This document shows positions 15,188 to 30,755 of a DNA stretch of 64,000 bases, piece by piece. The notes beneath the pieces were generated by a model. The model searched no databases. It was not told the DNA's origin and saw only the letters and a list, made by a program, of their open reading frames with translations. Position numbers and translations under genes: made by a program. The DNA is from Pseudomonas sp. MPC6. GTDB lineage: Bacteria; Pseudomonadota; Gammaproteobacteria; Pseudomonadales; Pseudomonadaceae. The stretch lies in NCBI RefSeq assembly GCF_006094435.1, contig NZ_CP034783.1, forward strand, positions 5,669,001 to 5,733,000. Reading direction: 5' to 3'. Positions within the stretch are counted from its first letter, which is position 1, and each line of letters begins with the position of its first letter.

Positions 15188-17500
15188 TTACGCCAACTGA
15201 CTGCGCAACTGCCGAGCCGCCGCCACCATGTTCACCAGCGCCGCCTCGGTCTCCGGCCACGCCCGGGTTTTCAACCCGCAGTCCGGGTTGACCCACAGCC
15301 GCTCGGCCGGAACCCGCTGCACCGCCTTGCTCATCAACTTGACCATTTCGGCCGTGTCCGGCACCCGTGGCGAGTGGATGTCGTAGACGCCCGGGCCGAT
15401 GTCGTTCGGGTAGTCGAAAGCTTTGAAGGCCTCGAGCAACTCCATGTCCGAACGCGAGGTTTCGATGGTGATCACGTCGGCGTCCATGGCCGCGATGGAC
15501 TCGATCACGTCGTTGAATTCGCTGTAGCACATGTGGGTGTGGATCTGGGTTTCGTCCCGTACGCCGGACGCGGTCAGGCGAAAGGCTTCCACTGCCCAGT
15601 CCAGATATTCCTGCCATTGCGCCCGACGCAGCGGCAGGCCTTCGCGGAACGCGGCTTCGTCGATCTGCACGATCTTGATGCCGGCGGCTTCCAGGTCCAG
15701 CACTTCATCGCGCAGGGCCAGCGCCAGTTGTTGCGCCTGGATTTTGCGCGAGACGTCTTCGCGGGGGAACGACCACATCAGCATGGTCACGGGACCGGTG
15801 AGCATGCCTTTCATGACCTTGTCGGTCAGGCTCTGGGCATAGGTGATCCAGTCAACGGTCATGGCGGTCGGGCGGCTCAGGTCGCCATAGATGATCGCCG
15901 GTTTGACGCAGCGCGAACCGTAGCTCTGGACCCAGCCGAAACGGGTGAAGGCATAACCATCCAGCTGTTCGGCGAAGTACTCGACCATGTCGTTGCGCTC
16001 GGCTTCACCGTGTACCAGCACGTCCAGGCCCAGGCGCTCCTGGACTTGCACGGCATGGCGGATTTCGCTGTGCATGGCATCGGTGTAATCGTTGGCCGAC
16101 AGCTTGCCTTGCTTGAAGGCCTGGCGTGCCAGGCGGATCGAAGCGGTCTGCGGGAACGAGCCAATGGTGGTCGTCGGGAACGCCGGCAGTTTCAGCCGGG
16201 CACGCTGTTGCTCAATGCGCTTGGCGAACGGCGAATGGCGTTGACTGTCCGCGGTGCCGATGGCATTGATGCGGGCCTGCACTTCGGCTTTGTGAATACG
16301 TGGCGACTCGGCACGACTGGCCTGGATCGCACGACTTTCGGCCAAGGCGGCTTGTACCTTGGGCGCTTGCGGATCGTTGAGGGCGTCGCGCAGTACGGCG
16401 ATTTCCCCGCATTTCTGCACCGCGAACGCCAGCCAGCTTTTCAACTCCGGATCAAGTTTGTCTTCACGCTCCAGATCCACGGGACTGTGCAGCAGCGAGC
16501 AGGAACTGCTGACCCACAGGTTGTCGCCAAAACGTTCCTGGGCAAATTGCAGTTGCGCCAGTACGGGCTCCAGCTCACAACGCCAGACGTTGCGTCCATT
16601 GACCAGGCCCACCGAGAGAACCTTGTAGGTCGGCAGGCGATCGAGCACGTGCAGCAGTTGGTCGGGGGCACGCACCGCATCGATGTGCAGGCCTTGCACC
16701 GGCAGGCCAACTGCCAGGCCGAGGTTGTCTTGCAGACCGCTGAAGTAGGTCGCCAGCAGTTTTTTCAGCGGAGAGTACTGAAGGATGTGATAGGCGCGCT
16801 CGAAGGCGTTTTTCCAGTCCTGCGGCAGATCGAGGGTCAGGATCGGTTCATCGATCTGCACCCATTCCACCCCTTGTTCAGCGAGACGACCGAGGATTTC
16901 GTTGTAGACCGGCAGCAGGCGTTCCAGCAGGTCGAGTTTGTCGAAATCGTCGCCTTTAGCCTTGCCCAGCCACAGGTAAGTCAGCGGGCCGATGATCACC
17001 GGCTTGACGTTGTGGCCCAGGGCCTTGGCTTCATCGACTTCATCGAACAGCTGTTCCCAGCTCAGTTTGAACGACTGATCAGCGCTGAACTCCGGGACCA
17101 GATAGTGGTAGTTGGTGTCGAACCACTTGGTCAGTTCCTGGGCGTATTGCGCTGTGACATGTTCGCCACCGCAGCAGCTCGCGGTAGCGCCACGGGCCAT
17201 GGCGAACAGGGTGTCGAGCGTCGGCAGGCCGTCTTGATCCTTGACGCTGTCGAAACGCTCGGGAATCACCCCGAAGGTCAGGGAGTGTGTGAGGACCTGG
17301 TCGTACCAGGCAAAGTCGCCCACCGGCAGCAGGTCGATGCCGGCGTCTTTCTGCACTTGCCAGTGGTTGGCGCGCAGCTGGCGACCGACGCTTTTCAACG
17401 CGTCCTGGTCAAGATCGCCCTTCCAGTAGGCTTCGAGGGCTTTTTTCAGTTCGCGGTCTGCGCCAATGCGGGGGAAACCCAGTGTGTGTGCCAAGGCCAT
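15188..17500 (-). CDS. metE: Cobalamin-independent methionine synthase
   Basis: This 770-residue enzyme transfers the methyl group of 5-methyltetrahydropteroyl-tri-glutamate to homocysteine, the last step of methionine synthesis without B12. The zinc-binding residues are present: His656 and Cys658 in [11 protein letters not shown] and Cys741 in NPDCGLKTR, at a constant offset of 15 from the E. coli positions. The N-terminal half carries the usual folate-site block near the start ([18 protein letters not shown]). The length fits the two-barrel family. The gene is divergent from metR, the usual arrangement for MetR-activated metE. It starts at ATG 17500. Confidence 0.97.
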
Positions 17501-17620
17501 GTTGAAAATTCTCTCGGTAAAAGATGCGGTAAAACATGGAGCTATTGTCGACAGCTAACCCAACATGAGACAAACTCAACCTTTTCGTGTTGATCACAAG
17601 TTTTCCTCATGGAGCCCCCG

Positions 17621-18538
17621 GTGCTTGAAATCCGCCACCTGAAGACCCTGCACGCCTTGCGCGAAGCTGACAGCCTGGTCGATGCCGCCGATCGGCTGCA
17701 CCTGACCCAGTCGGCCCTGTCCCACCAGTTCAAGGAGCTGGAGGAGCGCATGGGTATGCCGCTGTTCGTGCGCAAGACCAAGCCGGTGCGCTTCACCAGC
17801 GCCGGATTGCGCCTGCTGCAACTGGCCGATGCCACCCTGCCGCTGCTGCGTGGCGCCGAGCGCGACATCGCGCGGCTGGCCGGCGGCACTGCGGGCCGCT
17901 TGCACATGGCGATCGAGTGTCACAGTTGTTTCCAATGGCTGATGCCGACCATCGACCAGTTCCGCGACGCCTGGCCGGAGGTCGAACTGGACCTGGCCTC
18001 GGGCTTCTCCTTCGCCCCGCTGCCAGCCCTGGCCCGTGGCGACCTGGACCTGGTGGTGACCTCCGATCCGCTGGAACTGGCCGGGATCACCTATGTGCCG
18101 CTGTTCACCTATGAAGCGATGCTCGCGGTCGCCAACCAGCACCGTCTGGCGGGCAAGGCCTACATCGTCCCGGAAGATCTGCTGACGGAAACGCTGATCA
18201 CCTACCCGGTGGAGCGTGACCGGCTGGACATCTTCACCCGCTTCCTGGAACCGGCCGACATCGAACCGGCTCAGGTCCGCACCTCGGAACTGACGGTAAT
18301 GATGATGCAACTGGTGGCCAGCGGACGCGGGGTGTGCGGCATGCCGCATTGGGCGCTGCATGAATACAGCTCACGGGGTTATGTGAAGGCCAAGCGCCTC
18401 GGTGAGAAGGGCTTGTTTGCGACCTTGTATGCAGGGATTCGTGCCGACATGCTGGACGCGCCGTACATGCGCGATTTCTTGCTGACGGCCAAGGACACCT
18501 CGTTCTCGACCCTGGATGGCGTCAGCGCCGTTCGCTGA
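17621..18538 (+). CDS. metR: LysR-type activator MetR
   Basis: This 305-residue regulator has an N-terminal winged helix (LEIRHLKTLHALREADSL; helix SQ-ALSHQFKELEERMG) and a C-terminal effector-binding domain that in MetR senses homocysteine. I chose GTG 17621 because GGAG at 17611-17614 gives a proper ribosome site and the protein then begins MLEIRHLKTL, like E. coli MetR; the upstream ATG 17609 would add four residues. Divergent orientation to metE across about 120 bases supports the identity. I did not find an exact TGAA-N5-TTCA MetR box in that gap, so the operator is unassigned. Confidence 0.92.
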   Translation: MLEIRHLKTLHALREADSLVDAADRLHLTQSALSHQFKELEERMGMPLFVRKTKPVRFTSAGLRLLQLADATLPLLRGAERDIARLAGGTAGRLHMAIECHSCFQWLMPTIDQFRDAWPEVELDLASGFSFAPLPALARGDLDLVVTSDPLELAGITYVPLFTYEAMLAVANQHRLAGKAYIVPEDLLTETLITYPVERDRLDIFTRFLEPADIEPAQVRTSELTVMMMQLVASGRGVCGMPHWALHEYSSRGYVKAKRLGEKGLFATLYAGIRADMLDAPYMRDFLLTAKDTSFSTLDGVSAVR

Positions 18539-18543
18539 CCCCC

Positions 18544-18645
18544 CTGTAGGAGCGAGCTTGCTCGCGATGGACGTTAACGATGACGTGGGCTGCCTGGTTT
18601 AACGCGGCGCCCTCACGTCCATCGCGAGCAAGCTCGCTCCTACAA
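18544..18645. repeat. REP doublet of the GAGCGAGCTTGCTCGCGA type
   Basis: The forward arm GTAGGAGCGAGCTTGCTCGCGA and its inverse at the other end enclose a spacer that also contains matched GGACGTTAACG/ACGTCC elements. This REP subtype differs from the main GCTGGCTTGCCAGC type. It lies between metR and the LysE-type gene (convergent ends). Confidence 0.9.
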
Positions 18646-18748
18646 GGGTCTGTGGTGTTCAGATTTCTCCTTCTCGCCCGCCCCCGAACCGCCAGCGGTG
18701 CCCGATAGTCCAGGGCATGACTGGCATCCAGCCTTTCAATCCGCAGGT

Positions 18749-19387
18749 TCAGGCGGTGCGTCGCTGCTCAAGCATCAGCCGCACGGCCAGCGCCGATAGC
18801 ACGAAGCCCATGAAATAACGCTGTAGCGCCAGCCAGGTCGGGTTGTTGACGAACCAGGAGGCAATACCCGCCGCGAACAGTGCGATAAGCAGATTGACGC
18901 AGAAACTGACGCTGATCTGGGTCAGGCCGAGGAGGATGCTCTGGGTAAACACCGAGCCATGTTCAGGCGTGATGAACTGTGGAAACACCGACAGGTAAAA
19001 CACCGCGATCTTCGGATTCAGAGCGCTGGTCAAAAAGCCCATGGCGATAAGTCTGCGCGACGAGTCCGGCGGCAATTGCTGCGCCTCGAAAGGTGAACGC
19101 GCCCCCGGCTTGACCGCCTGCCAGGCCAGCCACATCAGGTACAGCGCGCCGGCCCACTTCAGCACTTCATAAGCCAACGGCACCGCGAGGAACACGGCGG
19201 TCAAACCGGCAGCCGCCGCGAACAGGTGCACGAAGAATCCCGCGACCACGCCGAGCAACGAAGTCACTCCGGCCTTGCGCCCCTGGCAGATCGAACGGGA
19301 GATCAGGTAGATCATGTTCGGCCCCGGTGTCAGCACCATCAGCAACGCGGCGCCGGCGAAAATCAGCAGGTCTTGAAGCGGGATCAT
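18749..19387 (-). CDS. LysE/RhtB-family amino-acid exporter
   Basis: This 212-residue inner-membrane protein has about six hydrophobic helices. The LysE family landmark LMVLTPGPNMIYLISRS is at the N terminus, and the second-half landmark LNPKIAVFYLSVFPQF is present. Family members export amino acids, homoserine lactones or related compounds; the substrate cannot be read from the sequence. The start at ATG 19387 lies 22 bases after the NUDIX gene stop, so the two are probably one transcript. The length is normal for the family. Confidence 0.93.
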   Translation of the reverse strand: MIPLQDLLIFAGAALLMVLTPGPNMIYLISRSICQGRKAGVTSLLGVVAGFFVHLFAAAAGLTAVFLAVPLAYEVLKWAGALYLMWLAWQAVKPGARSPFEAQQLPPDSSRRLIAMGFLTSALNPKIAVFYLSVFPQFITPEHGSVFTQSILLGLTQISVSFCVNLLIALFAAGIASWFVNNPTWLALQRYFMGFVLSALAVRLMLEQRRTA

Positions 19388-19409
19388 GGCAGTTCCCCGG
19401 CGTGAATGA

Positions 19410-19841
19410 TCAGGCGATCGCGGTCAGCGAGGCTCGATAAAACGGCAGGATCAGGTCCCGTGTCAATGGCGCCAGGATGAGATCGCCGTCGGTGGCCGGG
19501 TCGATCCAGCACACCTCTTCGATCTCTGCCGCCGGGGATACGGCTGAATCGATAGTCAGCTGAAAGAGTTCGGCCTGGACGACAAAACCCGGCTCGTTGG
19601 CGGCCGGTGCCGAAAATTGCCCAAGGTAGGTGGCCTGCGCCGGATCGATGACCAGGCCCAGCTCTTCATCCAGTTCTCGGGCCAGGGCGTGCACCGGTCG
19701 CTCATGGGCTTCGATCTTGCCGCCCGGTTGCATGAAGGCTTCGGTACCGCGCTTGCGGACCAGCAGGGTGCGCCCGTCGGGGCCGATCAACAGGGCGGCG
19801 GCGATGCGGATGAGGCGGGGCGAGACGCTGGATAGGGTCAT
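19410..19841 (-). CDS. NUDIX hydrolase
   Basis: This 143-residue enzyme has a complete Nudix box, starting GGKIEAHE and continuing to RELDEELGL, so it should cleave a nucleoside-diphosphate-linked substrate with Mg2+. The start is ATG 19841 (MTLSSVSPRLIRIAAALL). The frame remains open upstream only because it runs through REP sequence, which gives an implausible cysteine- and serine-rich N terminus. The substrate is unknown. It is the first gene of a likely two-gene operon with the LysE-type exporter. Confidence 0.9.
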   Translation of the reverse strand: MTLSSVSPRLIRIAAALLIGPDGRTLLVRKRGTEAFMQPGGKIEAHERPVHALARELDEELGLVIDPAQATYLGQFSAPAANEPGFVVQAELFQLTIDSAVSPAAEIEEVCWIDPATDGDLILAPLTRDLILPFYRASLTAIA

Positions 19842-19917
19842 GGGGCAGATCTGGCCTTGGTAAAAGGCGCAAGGATCACATGAGGGTGAGTGCCGGGCAA
19901 CCCATGAACAACACGCC

Positions 19918-20047
19918 CCCTGTAGGAGCTGGCTTGCCAGCGAAGAGGCCCTTGAGGATTGCAATAGGCTTGAGGCTTGTGCTGGCCTTGAGGTTTACGT
20001 TGGCTTTGAGGCCGCCTTCGCTGGCAAGCCAGCTCCTACAGGGGGGG
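19918..20047. repeat. REP doublet with an internal GGCTTGAGG-like repeat
   Basis: Forward and inverted main-type REP arms sit at the two ends. The spacer contains several copies of a TTGAGG/GGCTTGAGG motif (CCTTGAGGATT, GGCTTGAGGCTT, GCCTTGAGGTTT, GGCTTTGAGGCC). The inverted arm ends two bases before the stop of the HD-GYP gene. Confidence 0.88.
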
Positions 20048-20048
20048 G

Positions 20049-21428
20049 TCAATGCAGGGCTGGGGCCGCCTTGTCTGCCTCGAGAGTCGCGCCGTTCAGA
20101 TCCTCAGGTAACTTCACAAAAATGGCGTACTTCGCCCCTTCCATGGCTTCGAAAGCGATCAGCTTTTCCACCAGCGCCCCGTTCAACACCTTGCCGGCGT
20201 TGAGCAGCAACATGCCGTTGTCGGCATTGAGGTTGCGCGCCAGGATCATGCCCGCCGCCACGTCCCGGGTGGTCAGCACCTTGACCGAAGGATCGGCCAA
20301 CGAGACATCGCTCAGGTACGCCGCACAGACCTGGATGAAATCCTCCACCATCCCGGGATCGTAGAGCCGCCCGGCATAGTTACGGATATAGACCAATGCT
20401 TCATCGCTGTTCATCTGCCGCTCGAGAATCAGCCCACGCTGCAACTCGATGAAATCCACCGCCAGTTTCAGCAGCCGTGAACCGAACGGAATCGCCTCGC
20501 CCTTGAGCCGGTCGGGAAAGCCATTGCCATCCCAACGCTCCTGATGGTGAAGAATCAGCCGCGCCGCATCCTTCATCGGCTCGAGCGTCATCAACAGCGA
20601 CTCGCTCTGTTTTGGATAGCCGCGGTAGCGTTCCCGATCGTTGTGGTGCAGCAGGTCCGCCGGCGCGGTCATCATGCTGTCGGTCCAGCTCAGCTTGCCG
20701 ATGTTGTAGAGCGCCGCAGCCATGGTCAGGTCGCGACGGGTGCCTTCGTCCAGGTCATGCCGTTGGCAGTAGACCCGCACCAGCTCGATGATCTGGCGGT
20801 TGGTCTGTTTGGCCGGCGCCAACCGCAGGTTGGCCAGCAGCGAGAACACCTCGGTGCTGGTGACGTAGCTGTGCTTGAGTTCTTCGTAGGCCAGGTCGAG
20901 CATGTCGGCGGTCTGCTGCAGCTCGGCGGTACGGGCGGCGACGTGTTTCTCGAGGGTGGCATTGAGCAGCTTCAATTGCTGGTTCTGATCCCGCGTCTCC
21001 TGCACCAGACGCAAGCGTTCACGCTCGGAGTGCTGGTAGGCCAGGGATTGTCGCAACGTCAGCAGCATCTCCTCATCGTGCCAGGGTTTGCTGATGTAAC
21101 GATGAATCTGCCCTTCATTGATGGCTTTGATAATGACCGTCGGATCGGCGTAACCGGTCAGCATGATCCGGGTGGTGTCGGGGTAGCGCTGATGGATATG
21201 GGCCAGCAGCGTGGCGCCGTCCATATTGGGCATGCGCGCATCGCTCATCACCAGGTCGATGGACTGTTGCGCCATGATCTCCAGGGCCTGGGCACCGCTG
21301 GTGGCCAGCAGCACGTCATAGGGTTGGCCGCGCAACAGACGACGCAGGCTGTTGAGGATCGACGCCTCATCATCGACCAGCAACACTTTGGGTTTATCGG
21401 TCAATGTCGTGGGGAGTTGCTCTTCCAT
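20049..21428 (-). CDS. Response regulator with degenerate HD-GYP domain
   Basis: This 459-residue cytoplasmic protein has a receiver domain (VLLVDDEASIL; phospho-acceptor Asp63 in LVMSDARMPNMDG), a coiled linker (about 130-185) and an HD-GYP-like domain. In active HD-GYP c-di-GMP phosphodiesterases the metal site includes a His-Asp pair; here that position reads ALYNIGK (residues 239-245), so HD is replaced by YN. The GYP signature region is HHQERWDGNGFP (294-305). A later histidine position also appears changed (RYRGYPKQSE). It is therefore probably not a normal phosphodiesterase and may bind or signal instead. It is divergent from the c-di-GMP operon, across 256 bases. Confidence 0.9.
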   Translation of the reverse strand: MEEQLPTTLTDKPKVLLVDDEASILNSLRRLLRGQPYDVLLATSGAQALEIMAQQSIDLVMSDARMPNMDGATLLAHIHQRYPDTTRIMLTGYADPTVIIKAINEGQIHRYISKPWHDEEMLLTLRQSLAYQHSERERLRLVQETRDQNQQLKLLNATLEKHVAARTAELQQTADMLDLAYEELKHSYVTSTEVFSLLANLRLAPAKQTNRQIIELVRVYCQRHDLDEGTRRDLTMAAALYNIGKLSWTDSMMTAPADLLHHNDRERYRGYPKQSESLLMTLEPMKDAARLILHHQERWDGNGFPDRLKGEAIPFGSRLLKLAVDFIELQRGLILERQMNSDEALVYIRNYAGRLYDPGMVEDFIQVCAAYLSDVSLADPSVKVLTTRDVAAGMILARNLNADNGMLLLNAGKVLNGALVEKLIAFEAMEGAKYAIFVKLPEDLNGATLEADKAAPALH

Positions 21429-21646
21429 GGCGTCACCTCGAGTGAAACGGCTGTATCGCAGTCAGGATCCGAACAACCATTCCCTATTGTCGGAGCCCGA
21501 GCTTCAGGCTAGATGATTTTGCACGTGATCCGGAAATGATTCGGTTGATTCAGTAGCGCGAAGTGCCGGACAGAGGTCTATGCTCAGCTGACTCGGATCC
21601 ATAATCTGTACGTTCGGCCAGGTGATCAGGGAAAGGATGCCCCGCT

Positions 21647-21694
21647 ATGGACACACCCCACCGTAAAGCTGCCAGTCCCGGCGCATGTCGATGA
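21647..21694 (+). CDS. Possible 15-codon leader ORF before the GGDEF-EAL operon
   Basis: ATG 21647 lies 9 bases after a strong ribosome site (GAAAGGA, 21631-21637) and encodes MDTPHRKAASPGACR. Its TGA (21692-21694) overlaps an ATG at 21691, the third codon of the annotated downstream gene. The downstream gene has no good ribosome site of its own, so coupled initiation through this leader is plausible. No recognisable peptide function. Confidence 0.35.
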   Translation: MDTPHRKAASPGACR

Positions 21695-23991
21695 ATTCAT
21701 TGCTGGCGCGGACCAACCGGCGAATTCTGATCGTCGACGATACTGCTTCGATTCATGCCGACTTCGCGAAGATTCTCAGTCCGGCCTCGTTCGACGACGA
21801 CAGTCTGGTCAGCGCCGAAAATGCCCTGTTCGGCACCTCCGCGGCGATTTCACTGCAAAGTTTCCTGCTCGATTCGGCGTTTCAGGGCCTCCAGGCACTG
21901 GACAAGGTCGAGACCGCGCTGGCCAACGACCTGCCCTACGCCATGGCCTTCATCGACATGCGCATGCCACCGGGCTGGGACGGGCTGGAGACCATCGAAC
22001 GGCTGTGGCAGGTCGATCCCAAGCTGCAGGTGGCGCTTTGCACCGCCTATTCCGACTATTCCTGGGAAGACATCGACGAGCGCCTGGAGTTGGGCGATCG
22101 CTTGCTGATTCTGAAAAAACCCTTCGATGCCATCGAAATCCGCCAGATGGCGAGCGCATTGACCGCCAAATGGCAGATGACCGAAGACGCGGCATTGAAA
22201 ATGTCCCTGCTGGAGCAGGCCGTCGAGGAACGCACCCGGGAGCTGTCCGATGCCAATATCATCGTGCAGAACAGCCCGACCATCCTGTATCGGTTGCGGG
22301 GCGAGCCGTCGTTTCCGTTGATGTACATCTCCCACAACATCACCAAATACGGGCACATTGCCGCGGCGCTCGTGGCGTCGGCCAACTGGGCCCAGGAGCT
22401 GATCCATCCCGACGATCAATCGAAAGTCGACACTGCCATGGCCCGGGTGCTCGACCGCCATGCGGCGGGCGCCTCCATCGAGTTCAGGATGCGCACCGGC
22501 AATGGCGCCTGGCGCTGGGTGGAAAACCGCTACATCCCGGTACGCGACAATGAGGGCCGCTTGCTGGAAGTCGAAGGCATCATCATCGACATCACCGAGC
22601 GCAAAATGGCCGAGGAGAAAATCGCCCTGCTGGCCCGCACCGACGGGCTGACCGGGCTGGCCAACCGCGCGACGCTGATCGAACGGCTGCACCAGGCGTT
22701 CGCTGCCGCGCGACGGGGCGCCGCCACCTTCGCCATGTTTTACCTGGACCTGGATCACTTCAAACGCATCAACGACTCCCTGGGTCACCCGGTGGGCGAC
22801 CTGTTACTGCAGGAGGTTGCACGCCGAATCAAGGCCTGTGTGCGGGAAAACGATGTGGTCGCACGCCTGGGTGGTGACGAGTTCGCAATCTTGCAACTGG
22901 ATGTCAGTGACCCGACCCAATCCGCAGGGCTGGCCGCCAAGGTCCGGGATGCGCTGGTGTCGCCCTACTCCCTGGCCGGCAACGATGTGCGGGTCTCGGT
23001 CAGCATCGGCATCAGCAGCTACAGCCCGGCCTGCACCAGCGCCGACGGGCTGCTGACCCAGGCCGACATGGCGCTGTATCGCTCCAAGGAAAAGGGGCGC
23101 AACCAGTACCACTTCCACTCCGAGGAGATCAATCAGGAGGTGGTCGAGCGCATGGCCATCGCCAGCGACTTGAGAGAAGCCATCGAACGCGAGGAACTGG
23201 AACTGCATTACTGGCCGGAAGTGGACCTGAGCAGCGGCAGGATCCTCGGCATGGAAGCACAGGTCCGCTGGAACCACCCGGAACGCGGGCTGCTGGAAGC
23301 TTCGGCATTTCTGCCCGCAGCGGAAAAGACCGGCGCCATCGTCGCCCTCGGTCACTGGGTGCTGGATCGTGCGTGCAGGCAAATGCGCCAGTGGCGCGAC
23401 GCCGGCATGGCACCTCCGGTGATCGCGATCAAACTGTCCCTGGCCCAGCTCAAGAGTGGTCCCGAACTGATCTACGACGTGCTGCGCACCACCGCGCGCT
23501 TGGAACTGAGCCCCTGGGACCTGCGCTTCGATGTCACAGAAGCGACGCTGGCCCAGACCAAATGGACCCACAACGATGTGTTGCCACGCCTGCGTGAGCT
23601 GGGGGTGAAGATCGCCATCGACGACTTCGGCACCGAGTATTCCTCCTTCGACTACCTCAAGACCTATCAGGTCAATCACCTGAAACTCGCCCAGGCCTTC
23701 ATCGACACCGCGGCCCGCGACCCGGCATGCGCGAACACCTTGCGCGCCATCATCAACTTCGCCCGGGAGGTAGGGATCGGCATCATTGCCGAGGGCGTCG
23801 AAACGCAGGAGCAGCGCAACTCGCTGATGGCCACCGGCTCGCCGATGAACGCCCAGGGCGATTACTTCAGCGAAGCCGTCAGCAGCCAGCAGGCTGCCGA
23901 GCTGCTGAAGGCCGGCAGTATCGCGCCCGCGAGCCACGACCTGGGGCCGATGCACGACAACCCGCAACGCGCCACCGGGGACAAAGGATGA
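21685..23991 (+). CDS. REC-PAS-GGDEF-EAL protein, GGDEF intact and EAL degenerate
   Basis: This 768-residue cytoplasmic regulator has an extended receiver domain (RRILIVDDT; phospho-acceptor Asp91 in AFIDMRMPPGWDG), a PAS domain (about 190-305), GGDEF (about 315-475) and EAL (about 490-740). GGDEF is intact at 396-400, with metal Asp in LDLDHFK and the inhibitory I-site RxxD at 387-390, so it should make c-di-GMP. EAL looks inactive: EAL is EAQ (524-526), the metal-binding Asn of the NxS motif is Lys583 (IKLSLAQ), and DDFGTGYSS is DDFGTEYSS. The start may be ATG 21691 rather than 21685. The stop overlaps the next gene (ATGA). Confidence 0.93.
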   Translation: MSMNSLLARTNRRILIVDDTASIHADFAKILSPASFDDDSLVSAENALFGTSAAISLQSFLLDSAFQGLQALDKVETALANDLPYAMAFIDMRMPPGWDGLETIERLWQVDPKLQVALCTAYSDYSWEDIDERLELGDRLLILKKPFDAIEIRQMASALTAKWQMTEDAALKMSLLEQAVEERTRELSDANIIVQNSPTILYRLRGEPSFPLMYISHNITKYGHIAAALVASANWAQELIHPDDQSKVDTAMARVLDRHAAGASIEFRMRTGNGAWRWVENRYIPVRDNEGRLLEVEGIIIDITERKMAEEKIALLARTDGLTGLANRATLIERLHQAFAAARRGAATFAMFYLDLDHFKRINDSLGHPVGDLLLQEVARRIKACVRENDVVARLGGDEFAILQLDVSDPTQSAGLAAKVRDALVSPYSLAGNDVRVSVSIGISSYSPACTSADGLLTQADMALYRSKEKGRNQYHFHSEEINQEVVERMAIASDLREAIEREELELHYWPEVDLSSGRILGMEAQVRWNHPERGLLEASAFLPAAEKTGAIVALGHWVLDRACRQMRQWRDAGMAPPVIAIKLSLAQLKSGPELIYDVLRTTARLELSPWDLRFDVTEATLAQTKWTHNDVLPRLRELGVKIAIDDFGTEYSSFDYLKTYQVNHLKLAQAFIDTAARDPACANTLRAIINFAREVGIGIIAEGVETQEQRNSLMATGSPMNAQGDYFSEAVSSQQAAELLKAGSIAPASHDLGPMHDNPQRATGDKG

Positions 23992-25862
23992 AAACCCCTT
24001 TCGTGCGAACCAACCGGCGCATTCTGATCATCGACGATACGCCCTCGATCCATGAGGATTTTCGCAAGATCCTTGGCACGCAAAACGAAAATGAACAAAG
24101 CCTGGCCGGCACCGAAGAAGCCCTGTTCGGCACCGTGCAGCAAGATCGACTGTCGTTTCAGCTCGACTCGGCCTACCAGGGTTCGGAAGCCCTCGAACAG
24201 GTCCAGTGCGCACTGGCCGAAGGTCGACCTTATGCCATGGCCTTCATCGACATGCGCATGCCACCGGGCTGGGATGGCCTGGAGACCATCGAACAGCTGT
24301 GGAAGGCCGACCCACACCTGCAAATTGCCTTGTGCACCGCCTATTCCGATTACAGCTGGGAAGACATGGCGGAGCGGCTGGAATTCGGCGACCAGCTGCT
24401 GGTGCTGAAAAAACCTTTCGACAGCCTGGAAATCCGGCAGATGGCCAGTGCCCTGACCTGGAAGTGGCAGATGACGCAGGACGCGGCCATTAAAGTCCTG
24501 AGCCTGGAGCAAACCATCGAGGCCCGGGTCCTCGAACTGCTCAAGGTTTCGCATCTGTTGCAGTACGACGTCCTGACCGAGCTGCCCAACAGCACGTTGC
24601 TCGGTGACCGCTTGAACCAGTCGCTGGCGCTGTCCCGGCGCCATGACAAGCAACTGGCGGTGATGTTTCTGGGGCTCGACCGCTTCAAACGCATCAACAA
24701 CGCACTGGGCCATCCGGCCGGTGACCAGATGCTCAAGCAGGTCGGGCGCAATCTGGTGGCCTCGGTGCGTGAGTCCGACTCGGTGTTCCGCTACGGTTCG
24801 GACGAATTCGTGGTAATCCTCGCCGACATCCGCCACCCCCAGCAGACCACGGTCATCGCCGAAAAACTCCTCAAGGCTATCCGTGCACCCCAGCACATCG
24901 CAGGCCACGACCTGAGCGTCACCGCCAGCCTGGGCATCAGCGTCTATCCCGACGACGGCTTCGATGCGATCTCGCTGATCAAGAAAGCCGAAACCGCGAT
25001 GCGCAACGTCAAGGAAAGCGGCCCGAACGATTTCAGTTTTTTCATCGACGAAATGAACCAGCGCGCCCGGGATCAGCAAAGCATCGAGACGGGCATTCGC
25101 CTGGCGCTGGAGCGCAACGAATTTGTCCTGCATTACCAACCCAGACTGGACCTGGGCAGCGGTCAGGTAGTCGGTGCCGAGGCCTTGATCCGCTGGCATA
25201 AACCGGGGCATGGCTGCGTCTACCCGTCAGATTTTATCGGCGTGGCCGAAGACAGCGGCCTGATCGTCCCGTTAAGCAAATGGGTGTTGGCCCAGGCCTG
25301 TCGACAAGCCTGCTTGTGGCAGGCGGCCGGGCTGCCGAAAATCTGCATGTCGGTCAATGTATCGGCCATCGATTTTCGCCAACGGGACTTTGTCGACGGC
25401 ATCGAACAGGTACTCAAGGACACCGGTCTGGAGCCGGCCTTGCTCGAACTGGAAATCACCGAAGGCGTGTTGATGCAAAACATCGATGCCACCGTGACCG
25501 CCCTGAACCGGATCAAGGCATTGGGGGTGCGACTGGCCATCGATGACTTCGGTACCGGTTATTCCAGCCTGAGTTACTTGCGGCGCTTTCCCGTCGACGT
25601 GCTGAAAATCGACCAGTCGTTCATTCGCAGCTTGAGCAGCGACAGCAACGACGCCGCGCTGGTCAGCGCCATCATCAGCCTGGGCCGCAGCCTCAAGCTG
25701 ACCATCATTGCCGAAGGGGTGGAGACCCTCCAACAGCTGGATTTCCTCAAGGCCCATCAATGCGAGGAAGGCCAGGGCTACTACTTCAGCAAAGCCGTGG
25801 AGCCGGACGCATTCGTCCGGTACCTGCAATCGGTGCAGCCCTCTTCCTCCGTCTTCATGTGA
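23988..25862 (+). CDS. REC-GGDEF-EAL protein, EAL intact and GGDEF degenerate
   Basis: This 624-residue cytoplasmic regulator starts at ATG 23988, overlapping the previous stop. Its receiver is the same extended type (phospho-acceptor Asp88). The GGDEF domain is altered: the signature reads GSDEF (270-274) and the first metal aspartate of LDLD is Gly229 (FLGLDRFK). The EAL domain keeps all the marks of an active c-di-GMP phosphodiesterase: EAL 398-400 in AEALIRW, Asn457, ELEITEG, Asp519-Asp520 in DDFGTGYSS, Lys540 and Asp542, and the closing QGYYFSKA. It has no PAS domain. It is the likely breakdown partner of the preceding protein. Confidence 0.94.
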   Translation: MKTPFVRTNRRILIIDDTPSIHEDFRKILGTQNENEQSLAGTEEALFGTVQQDRLSFQLDSAYQGSEALEQVQCALAEGRPYAMAFIDMRMPPGWDGLETIEQLWKADPHLQIALCTAYSDYSWEDMAERLEFGDQLLVLKKPFDSLEIRQMASALTWKWQMTQDAAIKVLSLEQTIEARVLELLKVSHLLQYDVLTELPNSTLLGDRLNQSLALSRRHDKQLAVMFLGLDRFKRINNALGHPAGDQMLKQVGRNLVASVRESDSVFRYGSDEFVVILADIRHPQQTTVIAEKLLKAIRAPQHIAGHDLSVTASLGISVYPDDGFDAISLIKKAETAMRNVKESGPNDFSFFIDEMNQRARDQQSIETGIRLALERNEFVLHYQPRLDLGSGQVVGAEALIRWHKPGHGCVYPSDFIGVAEDSGLIVPLSKWVLAQACRQACLWQAAGLPKICMSVNVSAIDFRQRDFVDGIEQVLKDTGLEPALLELEITEGVLMQNIDATVTALNRIKALGVRLAIDDFGTGYSSLSYLRRFPVDVLKIDQSFIRSLSSDSNDAALVSAIISLGRSLKLTIIAEGVETLQQLDFLKAHQCEEGQGYYFSKAVEPDAFVRYLQSVQPSSSVFM

Positions 25863-25906
25863 ACGATGCGCAAAGACACTCAGGCCTCAGGCCAAGGAAT
25901 CATCAG

Positions 25907-26866
25907 ATGTCGCCCTTCTTTCACCACCTGCTTCTGGTGCCGTTGTTCGGGCTCTGTCTGAGCGCCGGCGCCGCTCCTTTGGATGAACCGCTCAAACCAT
26001 TGCCGGCGGTGCCCAGGCAGGATCCGCTGCGGGTCGAACTCGGGCGCCAGTTGTTCAACGAACCACGCCTGTCGGTCAACGGCTCGTTATCCTGTTCAAG
26101 CTGCCACCGGCTGGAAAAAGGCGGTGCCGACAACCAGGCATTTTCCATCGGTTTCGCCGGTCTTCCGGTGGCGATCAACACCCCCAGCGTATTCAACGCC
26201 AGCCTGAATATTCGGCAATTCTGGAACGGTCGAGCCGACACCCTCGAAGCCCAGATCCACGAAGTGGTACAGAGCCCCAGCGAAATGGGGAGCAACTGGG
26301 AGCACGTAGTGCAGACGCTGTCCGCCGATTCGGCTTATCAGGCCTCATTTGCCAACGCCTACCCGGACGGCGTGACCATGAACAATGTGCAAAACGCCCT
26401 GGCCACCTACGAACGCACGCTGCTCAGCAAAAACTCACGCTTCGACCAATACCTGCTGGGTGATACCGATATTCTTACCCGGGAGGAAAAATACGGTTAC
26501 CAGCGCTTCAAGGAATACGGCTGCATCGCCTGTCACCAGGGGGTGAACATCGGCGGCAACATGTTCCAGAAGTTCGGGGTGATGGGCGATTACTTTCAGG
26601 CTCGGGGCAAGCTTGTGGAATCCGACCTGGGCCGTTATCTGGTGACCCGGGACGAAGAGGATCGCAATGTGTTCAAGGTACCCAGCCTGCGCAACGTCGC
26701 CGTGACCGCGCCGTACTTTCACGATGGCTCGGCCAGCACCCTCGAAGACGCGGTAGACGTGATGTTCAAGTTCCAGCTCGGGCGCGTTCCTTCCACCGAG
26801 GACAAACACCTGATCATCAAATTCCTCAAGACCCTGACCGGTGAATGGGGAGGCAAACCCTTATGA
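25907..26866 (+). CDS. Periplasmic MauG/CcpA-type di-haem cytochrome c peroxidase
   Basis: This 319-residue protein starts at ATG 25907 behind AAGGA, with a signal peptide (HHLLLVPLFGLCLSAGAA). Two c-type haem sites are present: CSSCH at 63-67 and CIACH at 206-210. The order and the text NGSLSCSSCH, SVFNASLNIRQFWNGRA and FKVPSLRNVAVTAPYFHDGS match the bacterial di-haem peroxidase/MauG family. It should reduce peroxide, or carry out a MauG-like oxidation, in the periplasm. It is embedded in a c-di-GMP operon, 44 bases after the phosphodiesterase gene and overlapping the histidine kinase start (ATGA), which suggests a signalling role. Confidence 0.93.
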   Translation: MSPFFHHLLLVPLFGLCLSAGAAPLDEPLKPLPAVPRQDPLRVELGRQLFNEPRLSVNGSLSCSSCHRLEKGGADNQAFSIGFAGLPVAINTPSVFNASLNIRQFWNGRADTLEAQIHEVVQSPSEMGSNWEHVVQTLSADSAYQASFANAYPDGVTMNNVQNALATYERTLLSKNSRFDQYLLGDTDILTREEKYGYQRFKEYGCIACHQGVNIGGNMFQKFGVMGDYFQARGKLVESDLGRYLVTRDEEDRNVFKVPSLRNVAVTAPYFHDGSASTLEDAVDVMFKFQLGRVPSTEDKHLIIKFLKTLTGEWGGKPL

Positions 26867-28674
26867 GGATCTCTCGCCGCCGCAACCTGGCGCTGTTGGG
26901 CATCGTCGCCGTGATGCTGGCCTCGACGCTGCTGTTCCTGTACTTCAAATCCAACTCGAACCAGACCACGACCTACGCCGAGTCCCGGGACCTGATCGCG
27001 CGGATCAAACAGTTGAATGCCCAGTGGGAAACCGAGATTCTCAAGGCCAGGATCGCCATCAGCCACAACTACGACCCCCTGGTCGCACCGCTGACCGAGA
27101 TGACTGAGCTGTGGCAACGGTTCGATACGATGGCGTCCAGCCACGGCCGCCACGACTCGCCGACCTGGCGCGCCAGCCATGACGCTTACCAGAAAACCCT
27201 CCAGAAAAAGACCCGGCTGGTGGAGCAGTTCAAGTCGCACAACGCCGTGCTGCGCAACTCGCTGGCCTTCCTGCCCACTGCCGAGGACGACATTCAGCAA
27301 CAGCTGGGGCAGTTGGTGGACGGGGACAAACTGCAACTGCAGAACATCGCCACCGACACCTACGATTTGCTGCTCAGCAGCCTCGAGTTCGCCCAGGTCA
27401 CCTCCGACGACAAGGCGGCTGACATCCTGCTCGGGCTGAGCAAACTGGCGGTCAATAAAGAGCGTCTGCCTGAACAGTTCCACAGTCCGATCGATATTCT
27501 GAGCAACCACATTTCACTGATCCTGCGCGAGCAACCGGTGGTCAATCGATTGCTACAAGACATTGAAGCCATCCCCGTGGCCGAACGCCTGGACGACATC
27601 ACCAGCCTGTTGAACACGGATCAGCAGCGGGCCGATGCGGTCGACCAGCGCTATCACTTCTACATGCTGGTGTTTTCAGTCCTGCTGGTGCTGTTGCTGG
27701 TGTACCTGGCGATTCAGCTGATGCGCAGTTTCACGGTGATCCAGCGCGTCAACAAAGCCCTGCAATCGGCCAACGACGATCTTGAACTGCGGGTGGAAGA
27801 ACGCACCCGCGAGCTCAAGGACACCCAAAGCGAACTGCTCGACACTGCGCGCCAGGCCGGCATGGCCGAAATCGCCACCAACGTGTTGCACAACGTCGGC
27901 AACGTACTCAACAGCGTGAACATTTCCGCCGACCTGGTCTCGCGCAAACTGCGCGCCAGCAAGGCCCAGGGCCTGGGCAAGGCCATGCAGCTGATCAACG
28001 GGCATCCAGGCGACCTCGGTACTTTTCTCACCCAGGACGAGAAAGGTAAATTGCTGCCCGGCTATCTCAATCAACTGGTGGACGCGATTGCCCTGGAACA
28101 ACAAGGCATGACCGAGGAACTGGCGCAGCTGAGCAAAAGTGTCGACCACATCAAGGACATCGTCGCCACCCAGCAATCCTATGCCGGCGCCAACAGCCTG
28201 ATGGAACCGCTGCACATCAGCGAATTGCTCGAAGACGCCCTGCGCATGAATGCAGGCGCCTTGACCCGGCATCACGTCAAGGTGATCAAGGAGTACAACG
28301 AGGTGCCGCAGGTCATGGGCGACAAGCACCGGCTGCTGCTGATCCTGATCAACCTGATCAGCAATGCCAAGTACGCCATGTCCGAGTTGGGCAATCGCCC
28401 GCGGCAAATGACCCTTGGGGTAAAAATAGTCGAGGATTCGATCCTGCAAGTCAGCGTCAAGGATGACGGCGAAGGCATCGCCGAGGAGAACATGACGCGC
28501 ATCTTTGCCCACGGTTTCACCACCCGCAAGGAAGGCCATGGTTTCGGCCTGCACAGCTGTGCCCTGGCTGCCATCGAGATGAACGGCCACCTCTCTGCCC
28601 ATAGTGACGGCCCGGGCAAAGGCGCGCTGTTCACCTTGCAGATCCCGCTTAAAATCGTTCCGGAGCCTGCATGA
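26863..28674 (+). CDS. Membrane histidine kinase with all-helical periplasmic sensor
   Basis: This 603-residue kinase starts at ATG 26863, overlapping the peroxidase stop. Helices near 8-27 and 268-287 flank a long, helix-rich periplasmic domain with the look of a DAHL-type sensor. A coiled linker leads to the phospho-acceptor region NVLHNVGNVLNSVNISADL, where His343 is followed by NVGN instead of the usual ExxP. The ATPase domain has LILINLISNAKYAM (N box), VKDDGEGI (G1), IFAHGFTTRK (F) and GHGFGLHSC (G2). It overlaps the next gene (ATGA). The periplasmic sensor next to a periplasmic peroxidase suggests shared sensing (inference). Confidence 0.9.
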   Translation: MRISRRRNLALLGIVAVMLASTLLFLYFKSNSNQTTTYAESRDLIARIKQLNAQWETEILKARIAISHNYDPLVAPLTEMTELWQRFDTMASSHGRHDSPTWRASHDAYQKTLQKKTRLVEQFKSHNAVLRNSLAFLPTAEDDIQQQLGQLVDGDKLQLQNIATDTYDLLLSSLEFAQVTSDDKAADILLGLSKLAVNKERLPEQFHSPIDILSNHISLILREQPVVNRLLQDIEAIPVAERLDDITSLLNTDQQRADAVDQRYHFYMLVFSVLLVLLLVYLAIQLMRSFTVIQRVNKALQSANDDLELRVEERTRELKDTQSELLDTARQAGMAEIATNVLHNVGNVLNSVNISADLVSRKLRASKAQGLGKAMQLINGHPGDLGTFLTQDEKGKLLPGYLNQLVDAIALEQQGMTEELAQLSKSVDHIKDIVATQQSYAGANSLMEPLHISELLEDALRMNAGALTRHHVKVIKEYNEVPQVMGDKHRLLLILINLISNAKYAMSELGNRPRQMTLGVKIVEDSILQVSVKDDGEGIAEENMTRIFAHGFTTRKEGHGFGLHSCALAAIEMNGHLSAHSDGPGKGALFTLQIPLKIVPEPA

Positions 28675-30077
28675 GCGAGCGTTCGAACCGGCGTATTCTG
28701 CTGATCGACGATACACCGTCCATTCATGTGGATTTTCGCAAGATACTCATGCCAACACCGGCGCCGACCGTCGAACTGGACGAGATGGAAGCAGCGCTGT
28801 TCGGCAGTGAAGTCAAAACCGTCGGCGCCCTGTTCGAGCTGGACTCGGCGTACGGCGGGCAGGAGGGGCTCGGAAAGCTCAACTGGGCGCTGCAGGAGAA
28901 CCGTCCTTACGCCCTGGCGTTTGTCGACATGCGCATGCCCGAGGGCTGGGATGGCGCGCAGACCATTGAATACCTGTGGCAGCAGGACCCGCGCCTGCAG
29001 GTGGTGGTCTGCACCGCCTATTCCGACTATTCCTGGGATGAGTTGCTCGATCGCTTGCACGCCCACGACCGCTTGCTGATTCTGAAAAAGCCGTTCGACA
29101 ATATTGAAGTGCAGCAGATGGCCAGCACCCTGCTGACCAAATGGGACATGACCGAACGGGCCAGCATGCAGGTCGACCACCTGGGGCGGATGGTCAAACG
29201 CCGAACCCGGCAGCTCACGGAAACCAGCGTTGAGCTGCAGCGGGAAATCGATGAACGCAAACAGCTTGAATCGCAACTGGTGCAATCGGAAAAACTCGCC
29301 TCGCTGGGGCAACTCGCGGCGGGCGTCGCCCATGAAATCAACAATCCCATCGGCTTCATTTCTTCCAACCTTGGCACGCTCGATGGCTACTTCAAGCAGT
29401 TGCAGGAAATGCTCGACGCCTATCGGGATGCCGAAGAGGCCATCGGCTCCAGCGAGCTGATCGAGCGCTTGCAACGGCTGCGCGAACAGGTCGAACTGGA
29501 GTTCCTGCGCGATGACATTCCGCTGTTGATCAAGGAGTCCAAGGACGGGATCGACCGGGTCAGTCAGATCGTCAAGGACCTCAAGGATTTCTCCCGCGTG
29601 GACGCCAATCAGGAATGGCAGTGGGTCAACCTGCAACAGGGCATCGAGTCGACGCTGAACATCGTCGCCAATGAACTCAAGTACAAGGCCGATGTGATCA
29701 AGGAGTATCAGGAGCTGCCTGACATCGAGTGCCTGCCTTCGCAGATCAACCAGGTGATCATGAACCTGATCGTCAACGCCTCCCAGGCCATCGGCCCGGA
29801 ACGCGGCACCCTCACCCTGCGCACCGGGCATGAAGCTGAAAAGGTGTGGATCGAGGTGCAAGACACCGGCTCCGGCATCGCGCCGCAGAGCCTGCAGAAA
29901 ATCTTCGACCCGTTCTTCACCACCAAGCCGGTGGGCCAGGGGACGGGGCTGGGCTTGTCGCTGTCGTATGGCATCGTGAAGAAGCACCGGGGGCAGATTT
30001 CGGTGCGCAGCGAGGTTGGCGCAGGGACCACGTTCAGGATCGAGTTACCCATATACCAAACAAAACCGGCGGCCTGA
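28671..30077 (+). CDS. Receiver-histidine kinase hybrid
   Basis: This 468-residue cytoplasmic protein combines the same extended receiver domain (RRILLIDDTPSIH; phospho-acceptor Asp86 in AFVDMRMPEGWDG; CTAYSDYSW) with a C-terminal kinase. The kinase region has His221 in GVAHEINNPIGF, N box QVIMNLIVNASQA, G1 QDTGSGI, F box IFDPFFTTKP and G2 GTGLGLSLS. It has no membrane helix, so input is probably phosphotransfer to the receiver from another kinase. It is the last gene of the five-gene operon and is coupled to the membrane kinase gene by an ATGA overlap. Targets are not visible in the window other than the operon's own receivers. Confidence 0.93.
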   Translation: MSERSNRRILLIDDTPSIHVDFRKILMPTPAPTVELDEMEAALFGSEVKTVGALFELDSAYGGQEGLGKLNWALQENRPYALAFVDMRMPEGWDGAQTIEYLWQQDPRLQVVVCTAYSDYSWDELLDRLHAHDRLLILKKPFDNIEVQQMASTLLTKWDMTERASMQVDHLGRMVKRRTRQLTETSVELQREIDERKQLESQLVQSEKLASLGQLAAGVAHEINNPIGFISSNLGTLDGYFKQLQEMLDAYRDAEEAIGSSELIERLQRLREQVELEFLRDDIPLLIKESKDGIDRVSQIVKDLKDFSRVDANQEWQWVNLQQGIESTLNIVANELKYKADVIKEYQELPDIECLPSQINQVIMNLIVNASQAIGPERGTLTLRTGHEAEKVWIEVQDTGSGIAPQSLQKIFDPFFTTKPVGQGTGLGLSLSYGIVKKHRGQISVRSEVGAGTTFRIELPIYQTKPAA

Positions 30078-30117
30078 AACACGACCCGCGAAGAAATCCT
30101 TAAGGACGGTGCAAGCC

Positions 30118-30239
30118 TCGAGGGCCTCTTCGCTGCGGTGCGGCGATCCGACAAGCCGGCTCCTACATGATCACCTGCGTGCCGATGCATTGTGATCAAC
30201 GCCAAACCCTGTAGGAGCCGGCTTGCCGGCGAAGGCGTC
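30118..30239. repeat. Divergent REP elements downstream of the signalling operon
   Basis: A variant half-element (CTTCGCTGCGGTGCGGCGATC then ACAAGCCGGCTCCTAC) spans about 30128-30167, and a forward arm GTAGGAGCCGGCTTGCCGGC spans 30211-30230. Both are diverged from the main REP type in the window. Confidence 0.75.
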
Positions 30240-30281
30240 TTCAGATGCGCTGCAAGGCTTGAGGTCGCCTTAACCGTTCAA

Positions 30282-30551
30282 CTACGTGTGCTCATTGTTT
30301 AAGGCATCACCCTTTACGACACTCCTGACCACATACCTGGGCCGGTGCTTGGTTTCCATGTAAATCCTGCCGATGTATTCCCCCATGACGCCGATCCCGA
30401 CCAGTTGCACCCCTCCCAGAAACAGAATCGCCGTGATCAGCGAGGGAAAACCGGGCACTTCATTGCCCATTCTGCGATGAGTTTGGGCCTGATAGAACAC
30501 CTCGATGGCCTTCTCTTCATTGAAGACTGGAACGATCAATGAAATCTTCAT
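30282..30551 (-). pseudogene. gtrB remnant with a large in-frame internal deletion
   Basis: The 89-codon frame begins [21 protein letters not shown], matching residues 1-21 of the intact GtrB encoded at 32266-33207. It then jumps to a match with about residue 257 onward ([35 protein letters not shown]). All of the catalytic centre, including the DxD region, is missing, while one C-terminal membrane segment and the reading frame remain. It is probably non-functional as a transferase. It lies downstream of gtrIII, and its ATG overlaps the stop of a similar gtrA remnant. Confidence 0.88.
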
Positions 30552-30613
30552 GACTCGCGCCCACGAAACACTACAACCGTGTCGCAAAAGAATCCTTTCC
30601 CCAAGTCCTTCAT
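30548..30613 (-). pseudogene. gtrA remnant (21 codons) coupled to the gtrB remnant
   Basis: ATG 30613 encodes a 21-residue frame with KGF near its start and VVVFRGRES at its end. The intact GtrA (33204-33578) starts MRLLWKGF and ends YVVFREREQ, so the N and C ends are kept and the middle is lost. The TGA overlaps the gtrB-remnant ATG exactly as in the intact pair. A short ribosome site (AGGAAA) precedes the ATG. It is too small to form the GtrA membrane protein. Confidence 0.6.
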
Positions 30614-30755
30614 GACACTTTCCTGCCTGCGTTTCGACGACCTCAGGGTAGAACCGGCGCGAGTGCCGGTCTACTGTCACAACTGACAGGTAGGCAAGCG
30701 TTTCAGGTCAACGCTCGATCGGGCAATTGAGTGGTGAGCCACTGACCATCGCGCT

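Follow-up and report, generated by a model that had tools for sequence, protein, structure and literature searches.

Operons that combine synthesis and breakdown of cyclic di-GMP (c-di-GMP) are already known as a class. In E. coli, dgcO-pdeO (dosC-dosP) is a coupled synthase-phosphodiesterase operon; its two products are linked to O2 sensing and can associate with each other in vitro (PMC8846402, partial text). The Pseudomonas putida protein CfcR (Rup4959) is a REC-PAS-GGDEF-EAL regulator whose cyclase activity requires the receiver Asp and the kinase CfcA (PMC4951495, partial text), and the Roc and Pvr/Rcs systems of P. aeruginosa are branched kinase-regulator networks with several regulators (PMC12051241 and PMC2696094, partial texts). 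Here we describe two adjacent genes, gene 1 and gene 2, within a 64,000-nucleotide stretch (the window) of the Pseudomonas sp. MPC6 genome (contig NZ_CP034783.1, positions 5,669,001 to 5,733,000). The motif residues indicate that gene 1 probably encodes a synthase and gene 2 probably a phosphodiesterase, a reciprocal reading of the pair that is likely but unproven. Both encode receivers of one family and are clustered with a single close kinase.

Gene 1 (21685..23991; it and all other features are on the + strand unless noted) is predicted from its Pfam domains and motif residues to be a diguanylate cyclase of REC-PAS-GGDEF-EAL architecture. Its GGDEF domain scored 154 bits against a Pfam cut-off of 23.8 and contains an intact metal Asp (D355, 22747..22749), GGDEF motif (residues 396-400, 22870..22884) and inhibitory site (I-site, R387xxD390, 22843..22854). 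The EAL site is incomplete, with four changes, one of them at a metal ligand: EAQ stands where EAL is expected (residues 524-526, 23254..23262), K583 replaces the metal Asn (23431..23433), E651 replaces the Gly that follows DDFGT in the DDFGT(G) loop (23635..23637), and A669 replaces the Asp of KxD (23689..23691). E619, D646, D647, K667, E703 and Q724 are retained. Gene 2 (23988..25862) is by the same evidence a predicted REC-GGDEF-EAL phosphodiesterase. Its EAL domain is complete at each metal and active-site position checked, including the EAL motif (25179..25187) and the metal Asn N457 (25356..25358). Its GGDEF domain reads GSDEF (residues 270-274, 24795..24809) and has G229 in place of the metal Asp (24672..24674), and an intact I-site, R261xxD264 (24768..24779), remains although the catalytic Asp is lost. 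The receiver domains of gene 1 (21706..22239, phospho-acceptor D91) and gene 2 (24000..24533, D88) both contain the DD pair, acceptor Asp, T/S and K. Residue roles were assigned from general knowledge of the PleD, RocR and MorA families; RocR, of the P. aeruginosa Roc network, is an EAL response regulator. Alignments to solved GGDEF and EAL chains (5m3c, 4rnh and others) gave identical residue placement, including that of K583, E651, A669 and G229. The first-pass annotation of this DNA had thus read the coordinates, strand and four-base gene overlap correctly, along with the intact cyclase residues, EAQ and Lys583 of gene 1 and the GSDEF, Gly229 and intact EAL residues of gene 2; it had missed E651 and A669 and did not mention R261/D264. 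Structure prediction for gene 1 from a 14-row alignment (mean predicted local distance difference test score 66, predicted template modelling score 0.40) was better for GGDEF-EAL than for REC and the linker, and is overall too weak for use.

Conservation of these motif states was evaluated in gene 1 homologues. A search of 298 genus genomes (E <= 1e-150) located gene 1 in 70, the window's included, at 71 places; the 70 places outside the window (L039-L108) were combined with 80 named loci, the best 80 of at least 204, to give 150 loci with species overlap between the two sets. Among the matches listed, the closest named relatives are 90-96% identical to gene 1 and come from P. fluorescens, P. 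mandelii, P. frederiksbergensis and others. Counted as distinct sequences, the material comprises 121 versions of gene 1 and, for gene 2, 114 from paired and 38 from unpaired loci. The metal Asp, GGDEF motif and RxxD Arg and Asp of gene 1 are intact in all 150 loci. At its EAL site, KxD is altered in every locus, 143 of them having Ala; the loop position holds Glu or Asp in 149, the Asn is retained in 27 and the motif is spelt EAL in 26; no locus retains EAL, R, N and KxD together. The altered residues vary by lineage (EAQ/K, GVQ/D, AAQ/H and others), as they would if selection for catalysis had ceased. Gene 2 could be scored (>700 bits) at 143 of the loci, the other seven comprising five without gene 2, one with a different neighbour (L049) and one that is cut (L111). 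All 143 partners have Gly at the metal Asp, and 142 have intact EAL residues, the exception (L136) being split into two frames. The reciprocal pattern that the earlier annotation had drawn from one genome therefore extends to the homologues. The RxxD Arg of gene 2 is retained at 141 of 143 paired loci and in 38/38 distinct unpaired sequences. Receiver DD, Asp, T and K are retained in 150, 149, 150 and 150 of 150 gene 1 sequences and in 180, 181, 179 and 180 of 181 gene 2 sequences. A gene 1 without a PAS domain was seen in a single case among the 150 loci (L079, a 630-residue frame). The gene 1 at L049 is a second copy in its genome (G005); encoded after it are a different REC-PAS-GGDEF-EAL protein, its motif residues intact, and an Hpt-containing hybrid kinase.

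Gene 1 and gene 2 are co-directional and overlap by four bases (ATGA, 23988-23991). The four-base overlap is present in 88/90 pairs in which gene 2 is alignable from its first residue, with a one-base overlap in the other two, and in 132/143 pairs when the gene 2 start is extrapolated, which strengthens the first-pass proposal that the proteins are made together. The genes are paired in 65 of the 70 gene 1-bearing genus genomes, the window's included. Co-direction and this frequency, with the motif states, support the earlier view of a synthase-like and phosphodiesterase-like pair. The order of six genes (listed below) is identical in 57 of the 70 whole-genome stretches, several of the other 13 being cut by contig or stretch ends. 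The window's 7.2 Mb genome yielded 20 EAL matches, among which genes 1 and 2 are the sole adjoining ones. Since the pattern recurs in 150 gene 1 loci and 143 gene 2 partners, and involves the sole adjoining EAL genes, it is not due to chance. How unusual each motif state is was judged from the 15 GGDEF-EAL proteins of this genome with listed motifs, a set that contains genes 1 and 2. Five, gene 2 among them, retain an intact EAL site but have an altered GGDEF motif or metal Asp, and both sites are altered in one. In three, the GGDEF site is intact and the EAL site altered, with four changes in gene 1 and one or two in the others (Asn to Ser in L291; EIL and DDFC in L294). By these counts, the state of gene 2 is ordinary and that of gene 1 unusual.

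The two receivers and a nearby kinase may connect the pair to a common signal. The cluster contains a DAHL-sensor histidine kinase (26863..28674) and a REC-histidine kinase (28671..30077) whose receiver is the third member of the family represented by the gene 1 and gene 2 receivers. Within the genome, three receivers of this family were found (E <= 1e-5), all in the cluster, and the DAHL-kinase core, which scored 625 bits against itself and 62 bits against the next best protein, is the sole close member of its family. Outside the genus, the receiver was found in 13 of 274 class genomes, the window's own included (E <= 1e-30), and 11 of 16 stretches contain a kinase with its best match in this family, either adjoining the receiver gene or no more than about 1.2 kb away. 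The LHN(V/I)GN motif occurs in 10 such frames at nine of the outside-genus stretches and in 186/191 Pseudomonas kinase frames. Sensor parts of the outside-genus kinases differ (MHYT, CHASE8, PAS, PilJ). Seven of seven outside-genus REC-GGDEF-EAL proteins, from six genomes, retain the metal Asp, GGDEF motif and EAL Asn, although the I-site is missing from one and one has ECL/DDYG. An additional protein is REC-EAL only, and its EAL site is altered. The ancestral form was thus probably a kinase with one intact GGDEF-EAL regulator.

The account that we favor, and hold to be reasonably probable, is a single branched two-component system in which genes 1 and 2 provide opposing outputs. In it, the DAHL-domain kinase, encoded two genes downstream, would phosphorylate the near-equivalent receivers of gene 1 (at D91) and gene 2 (at D88), and probably also that of the REC-kinase. 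Gene 1 would then act as a diguanylate cyclase restrained by its intact I-site, its EAL barrel being retained as a putative non-catalytic module. Gene 2 would act as a c-di-GMP phosphodiesterase whose GGDEF domain, having lost catalysis and kept RxxD, is probably a c-di-GMP sensor that modulates its EAL domain. The near-universal retention of the gene 2 I-site Arg suggests that this domain binds c-di-GMP. From the observed motif states, conservation, overlap, common receiver family, single family kinase and gene order, we infer the enzymatic activities, the phosphotransfer and the direction of control. A bolder form of this account, tentative and somewhat doubtful, is a switch in which the DAHL kinase alone phosphorylates both receivers, the enzymes associate via the receiver and linker helix, and the dead domains serve as regulatory readers; one signal would then set both c-di-GMP synthesis and breakdown at one spot.

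Several observations weigh against opposing outputs under one kinase. They begin with catalysis, since a lost motif is no proof of inactivity: GNDEF and GGDQF cyclases are reported to be active, as is an EAL protein with the altered signature residue N417M (PMC12900916, partial text), and an AGDEF cyclase is active as well (PMC3974145, partial text). Given the activity of proteins with altered motifs reported in PMC12900916, a broken domain here means one that is predicted, from its signature residues, to be inactive. At the catalytic-base position of gene 1, Glu (E703) is retained in the window and at 145/150 loci. The diverse-set substitution rate of the gene 1 EAL domain and the unpaired copies of each gene, both described below, count in the same direction. 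No family kinase was found in 5 of the 16 outside-genus stretches, and the REC-kinase could be the phosphodonor instead of the DAHL kinase.

One or both broken domains might still be catalytic, so that one or both proteins would be bifunctional. The reported activity of degenerate GGDEF and EAL domains and the six EAL-site residues that gene 1 retains are compatible with this reading. It is nevertheless very unlikely, because the gene 1 EAL site of the window has four changes including a metal ligand, its first Glu or Arg is also gone in some other lineages, and none of the gene 2 loci scored, 143 paired and 39 unpaired, retains the metal Asp.

Ratios of nonsynonymous to synonymous substitution rates (dN/dS) were compared between domains in two sets of loci. 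In a close set (20 loci, 190 pairs), the median dN/dS was 0.077 for the gene 1 EAL domain and 0.077-0.092 for the other domains of gene 1 (receiver, 0.077), and 0.061 for the gene 2 GGDEF domain and 0.117-0.119 for the other domains of gene 2 (receiver, 0.119). In a diverse set (13 loci, 78 pairs), the gene 1 EAL domain had a value of 0.223 compared with 0.169-0.184 for the others, and the gene 2 GGDEF domain 0.201 compared with 0.209-0.238. These values indicate that purifying selection constrains both dead domains, the gene 1 EAL domain slightly less so. Pseudogene-like decay of the dead domains was rejected because dN/dS is far below 1 and near that of the other domains; mild relaxation of the gene 1 EAL domain is compatible with the data.

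The pair is not obligate. A gene 2 orthologue without gene 1 is present in 37 of the 298 genus genomes, and gene 1 without gene 2 at 5 loci. Together with second copies in two pair-bearing genomes, the former make up 39 unpaired gene 2 loci; a 40th stretch (L258), which has a distant relative only, was excluded. Every one of the 39 carries Gly in place of the metal Asp and has its EAL site intact, and 33 have the order NosR-family regulator, gene 2, peroxidase-like gene, kinase and REC-kinase, gene 1 being absent. Two lone gene 2 loci nest beside the window in the gene 2 tree. DNA-level comparison with gene 1 revealed no separate gene 1 remnant in nine lone loci; the matches there lie within gene 2 or the REC-kinase gene, in the parts that code for receiver, GGDEF or EAL. 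In the five lone gene 1 loci, EAL, R and N persist, but KxA and the altered loop are already present, and each locus has an extra change: Asp or Gly at the E703 position in three, DNFG in one and Gln to His in one. Because the unpaired copies are already damaged, the damage to each protein is independent of its partner. A chimeric receiver left by gene 1 deletion was also considered and is unsupported: gene 2 receivers of 12 unpaired loci, compared in five segments, mostly match gene 2, with small exceptions in two or three segments of L255 and L256 and in single segments elsewhere. At one lone gene 1 locus (L078), the adjoining gene encodes a kinase whose sensor domain is ethylene-receptor-like (ETR1_N).

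An alternative is that genes 1 and 2 encode GGDEF-EAL regulators without relation to each other, which have no more than an operon and receiver in common and answer to different kinases or signals with no functional coupling. The paired or lone state changed at least four times on a 34-row gene 2 tree (three counting starred branches only), the neighbors of gene 1 are different in L049, L078 and the Variovorax plasmids described below, and the PAS domain is an extra input for gene 1. We consider this alternative unlikely in view of the one close kinase and three family receivers of the genome, all in the cluster, the six-gene order and four-base overlap in most stretches and pairs, and the homogenization of the receiver between genes 1 and 2 in one lineage.

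The first-pass annotation had further proposed that one ancestral bifunctional protein was duplicated and split. In this scheme, a bifunctional REC-GGDEF-EAL protein gave rise to two copies that each lost the opposite activity. Gene 1 and gene 2 receivers do form one Pseudomonas clade (96/96), apart from the REC-kinase receiver (45 rows), and relatives that look bifunctional are found outside the genus. In the tree of the catalytic halves, two solid clades stand on long stems; uniting them costs 4.9 log units (approximately unbiased test, p 0.313; 34 of 78 rows, with two long-branch own paralogues, L290 and L291, left out), so that a sister relation is compatible with the tree, being neither supported nor rejected. 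The identities argue against the scheme. Between gene 1 and gene 2 of the same genome (114 pairs), receivers are on average 64.5% identical, GGDEF domains 38.2% and EAL domains 37.3%, unlike orthologues with receivers 60-70% identical, whose GGDEF and EAL domains are about 67-72% and 59-68% identical (for gene 1, the lower identity bin holds 7 pairs only). The drop in gene 1-gene 2 identity falls at about residue 160-180 in 9/9 loci profiled, and nine proteins of the same genome are closer than gene 1 to the catalytic half of gene 2. Gene 2 is broken in 39/39 unpaired loci and gene 1 is damaged in 5/5, and the window's gene 1 has a PAS domain where gene 2 has none. Duplication and splitting is thus left unsupported and is, in our estimation, quite improbable. 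We infer from these comparisons that the pair was assembled from modules, or from two enzymes with a common receiver, and not by splitting one bifunctional enzyme.

Exchange between the two receivers is indicated in one lineage (L068/L187 and L071). Its receivers are 82-83% identical whereas its GGDEF and EAL domains are 34-35% and 41-42% identical, and its receiver DNA is mostly 80-95% identical across the first 160 residues. The disparity between receiver and GGDEF identities points to receiver gene conversion as the probable cause. Concerted receiver evolution in all lineages was tested with 143 pairs thinned to 93 and 5000 shuffles. Receiver identity was 0.641 within and 0.639 between genomes, the within-genome value being matched in 39 of 5000 shuffles; when the L068/L187/L071 lineage was removed (91 pairs), the values were 0.637 and 0.638 (2586 of 5000). 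The EAL domain, used as a control, had an excess just as small in each of the two runs (123 and 152 of 5000), and the GGDEF domain had none. Concerted evolution was therefore rejected as a general process and kept for this lineage. Among at least 5000 matching plasmid records, the sole ones above 60% identity were two Variovorax paradoxus plasmids (L316 and L317), in which a 65% identical gene 1 adjoins a same-family kinase (2/2 plasmids) and then a GGDEF-EAL protein (HAMP-linked in the one scanned). Horizontal transfer of the Variovorax plasmid gene 1 is likely. A FIST-domain protein is also located beside gene 1 on L316.

The pair is flanked upstream by a divergent response regulator (20049..21428, - strand) with a REC and a degenerate HD-GYP-type domain that belongs to the NosR family of NCBIfam (583 bits against a cut-off of 400). 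Its HD motif reads YN; among 168 orthologous loci, this position is YN in 150 and HN in 18. The NosR-family regulator and genes 1 and 2 are three consecutive c-di-GMP-type proteins with one altered catalytic site apiece. Gene 2 is followed by a MauG/cytochrome c peroxidase-like di-haem protein (25907..26866), the DAHL kinase and the REC-kinase, whose genes have four-base overlaps each with the starts chosen here for the peroxidase-like and DAHL-kinase genes. The di-haem protein is conserved within this signaling operon. A very long open frame, of 1899 residues, lies upstream of the cluster (9372-15071). No Rfam family reached its gathering score within 17000-32000 of the window.

The locus touches on why many GGDEF-EAL proteins keep one dead half and how opposing c-di-GMP enzymes avoid futile cycling. 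It exists in natural variants with both enzymes, the phosphodiesterase only or the cyclase-like protein only, and has conserved motif states and one candidate kinase; the idea of one kinase with two opposite outputs, and the purpose of the dead domains, are therefore directly testable in soil Pseudomonas.

The first-pass annotation knew of no description of such an arrangement as a coupled pair. The class is not new, given dgcO-pdeO (PMC8846402, partial text); for this particular pair we recognized no describing study in the literature searched, which leaves most subscription papers outside and does not prove absence. A candidate relative is PSF113_4681 of P. ogarae F113 (homologue Pfl01_4551, with GGDEF and EAL domains), which is activated by AmrZ and whose mutant has lowered expression of several matrix genes (PMC9279365 and PMC5792552, partial texts); it may be gene 1 or gene 2. 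Gene 1 resembles CfcR, as far as the description goes, in its REC-PAS-GGDEF-EAL architecture. It differs in that CfcR, with acceptor D65, is described as an orphan regulator, the available text mentioning no paired phosphodiesterase regulator (PMC4951495). For the Roc and Pvr/Rcs networks, likewise, the partial texts cited above describe no adjacent cyclase and phosphodiesterase that have near-identical receivers. The best solved-structure matches of both proteins are the MorA-type GGDEF-EAL chains 5m3c and 4rnh, the latter of which we take to be MorA itself; unlike genes 1 and 2, both chains have two intact catalytic sites and are without a receiver domain. The products of dgcO-pdeO are haem-based sensors, not response regulators, and we know of no receiver or kinase common to them. 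Like dgcO-pdeO, genes 1 and 2 are adjacent and co-directional, with diguanylate cyclase-like and phosphodiesterase-like motifs. The Pfam input domains of the two are REC and PAS in gene 1 and REC in gene 2, compared with the haem O2-sensor domains of the E. coli pair.

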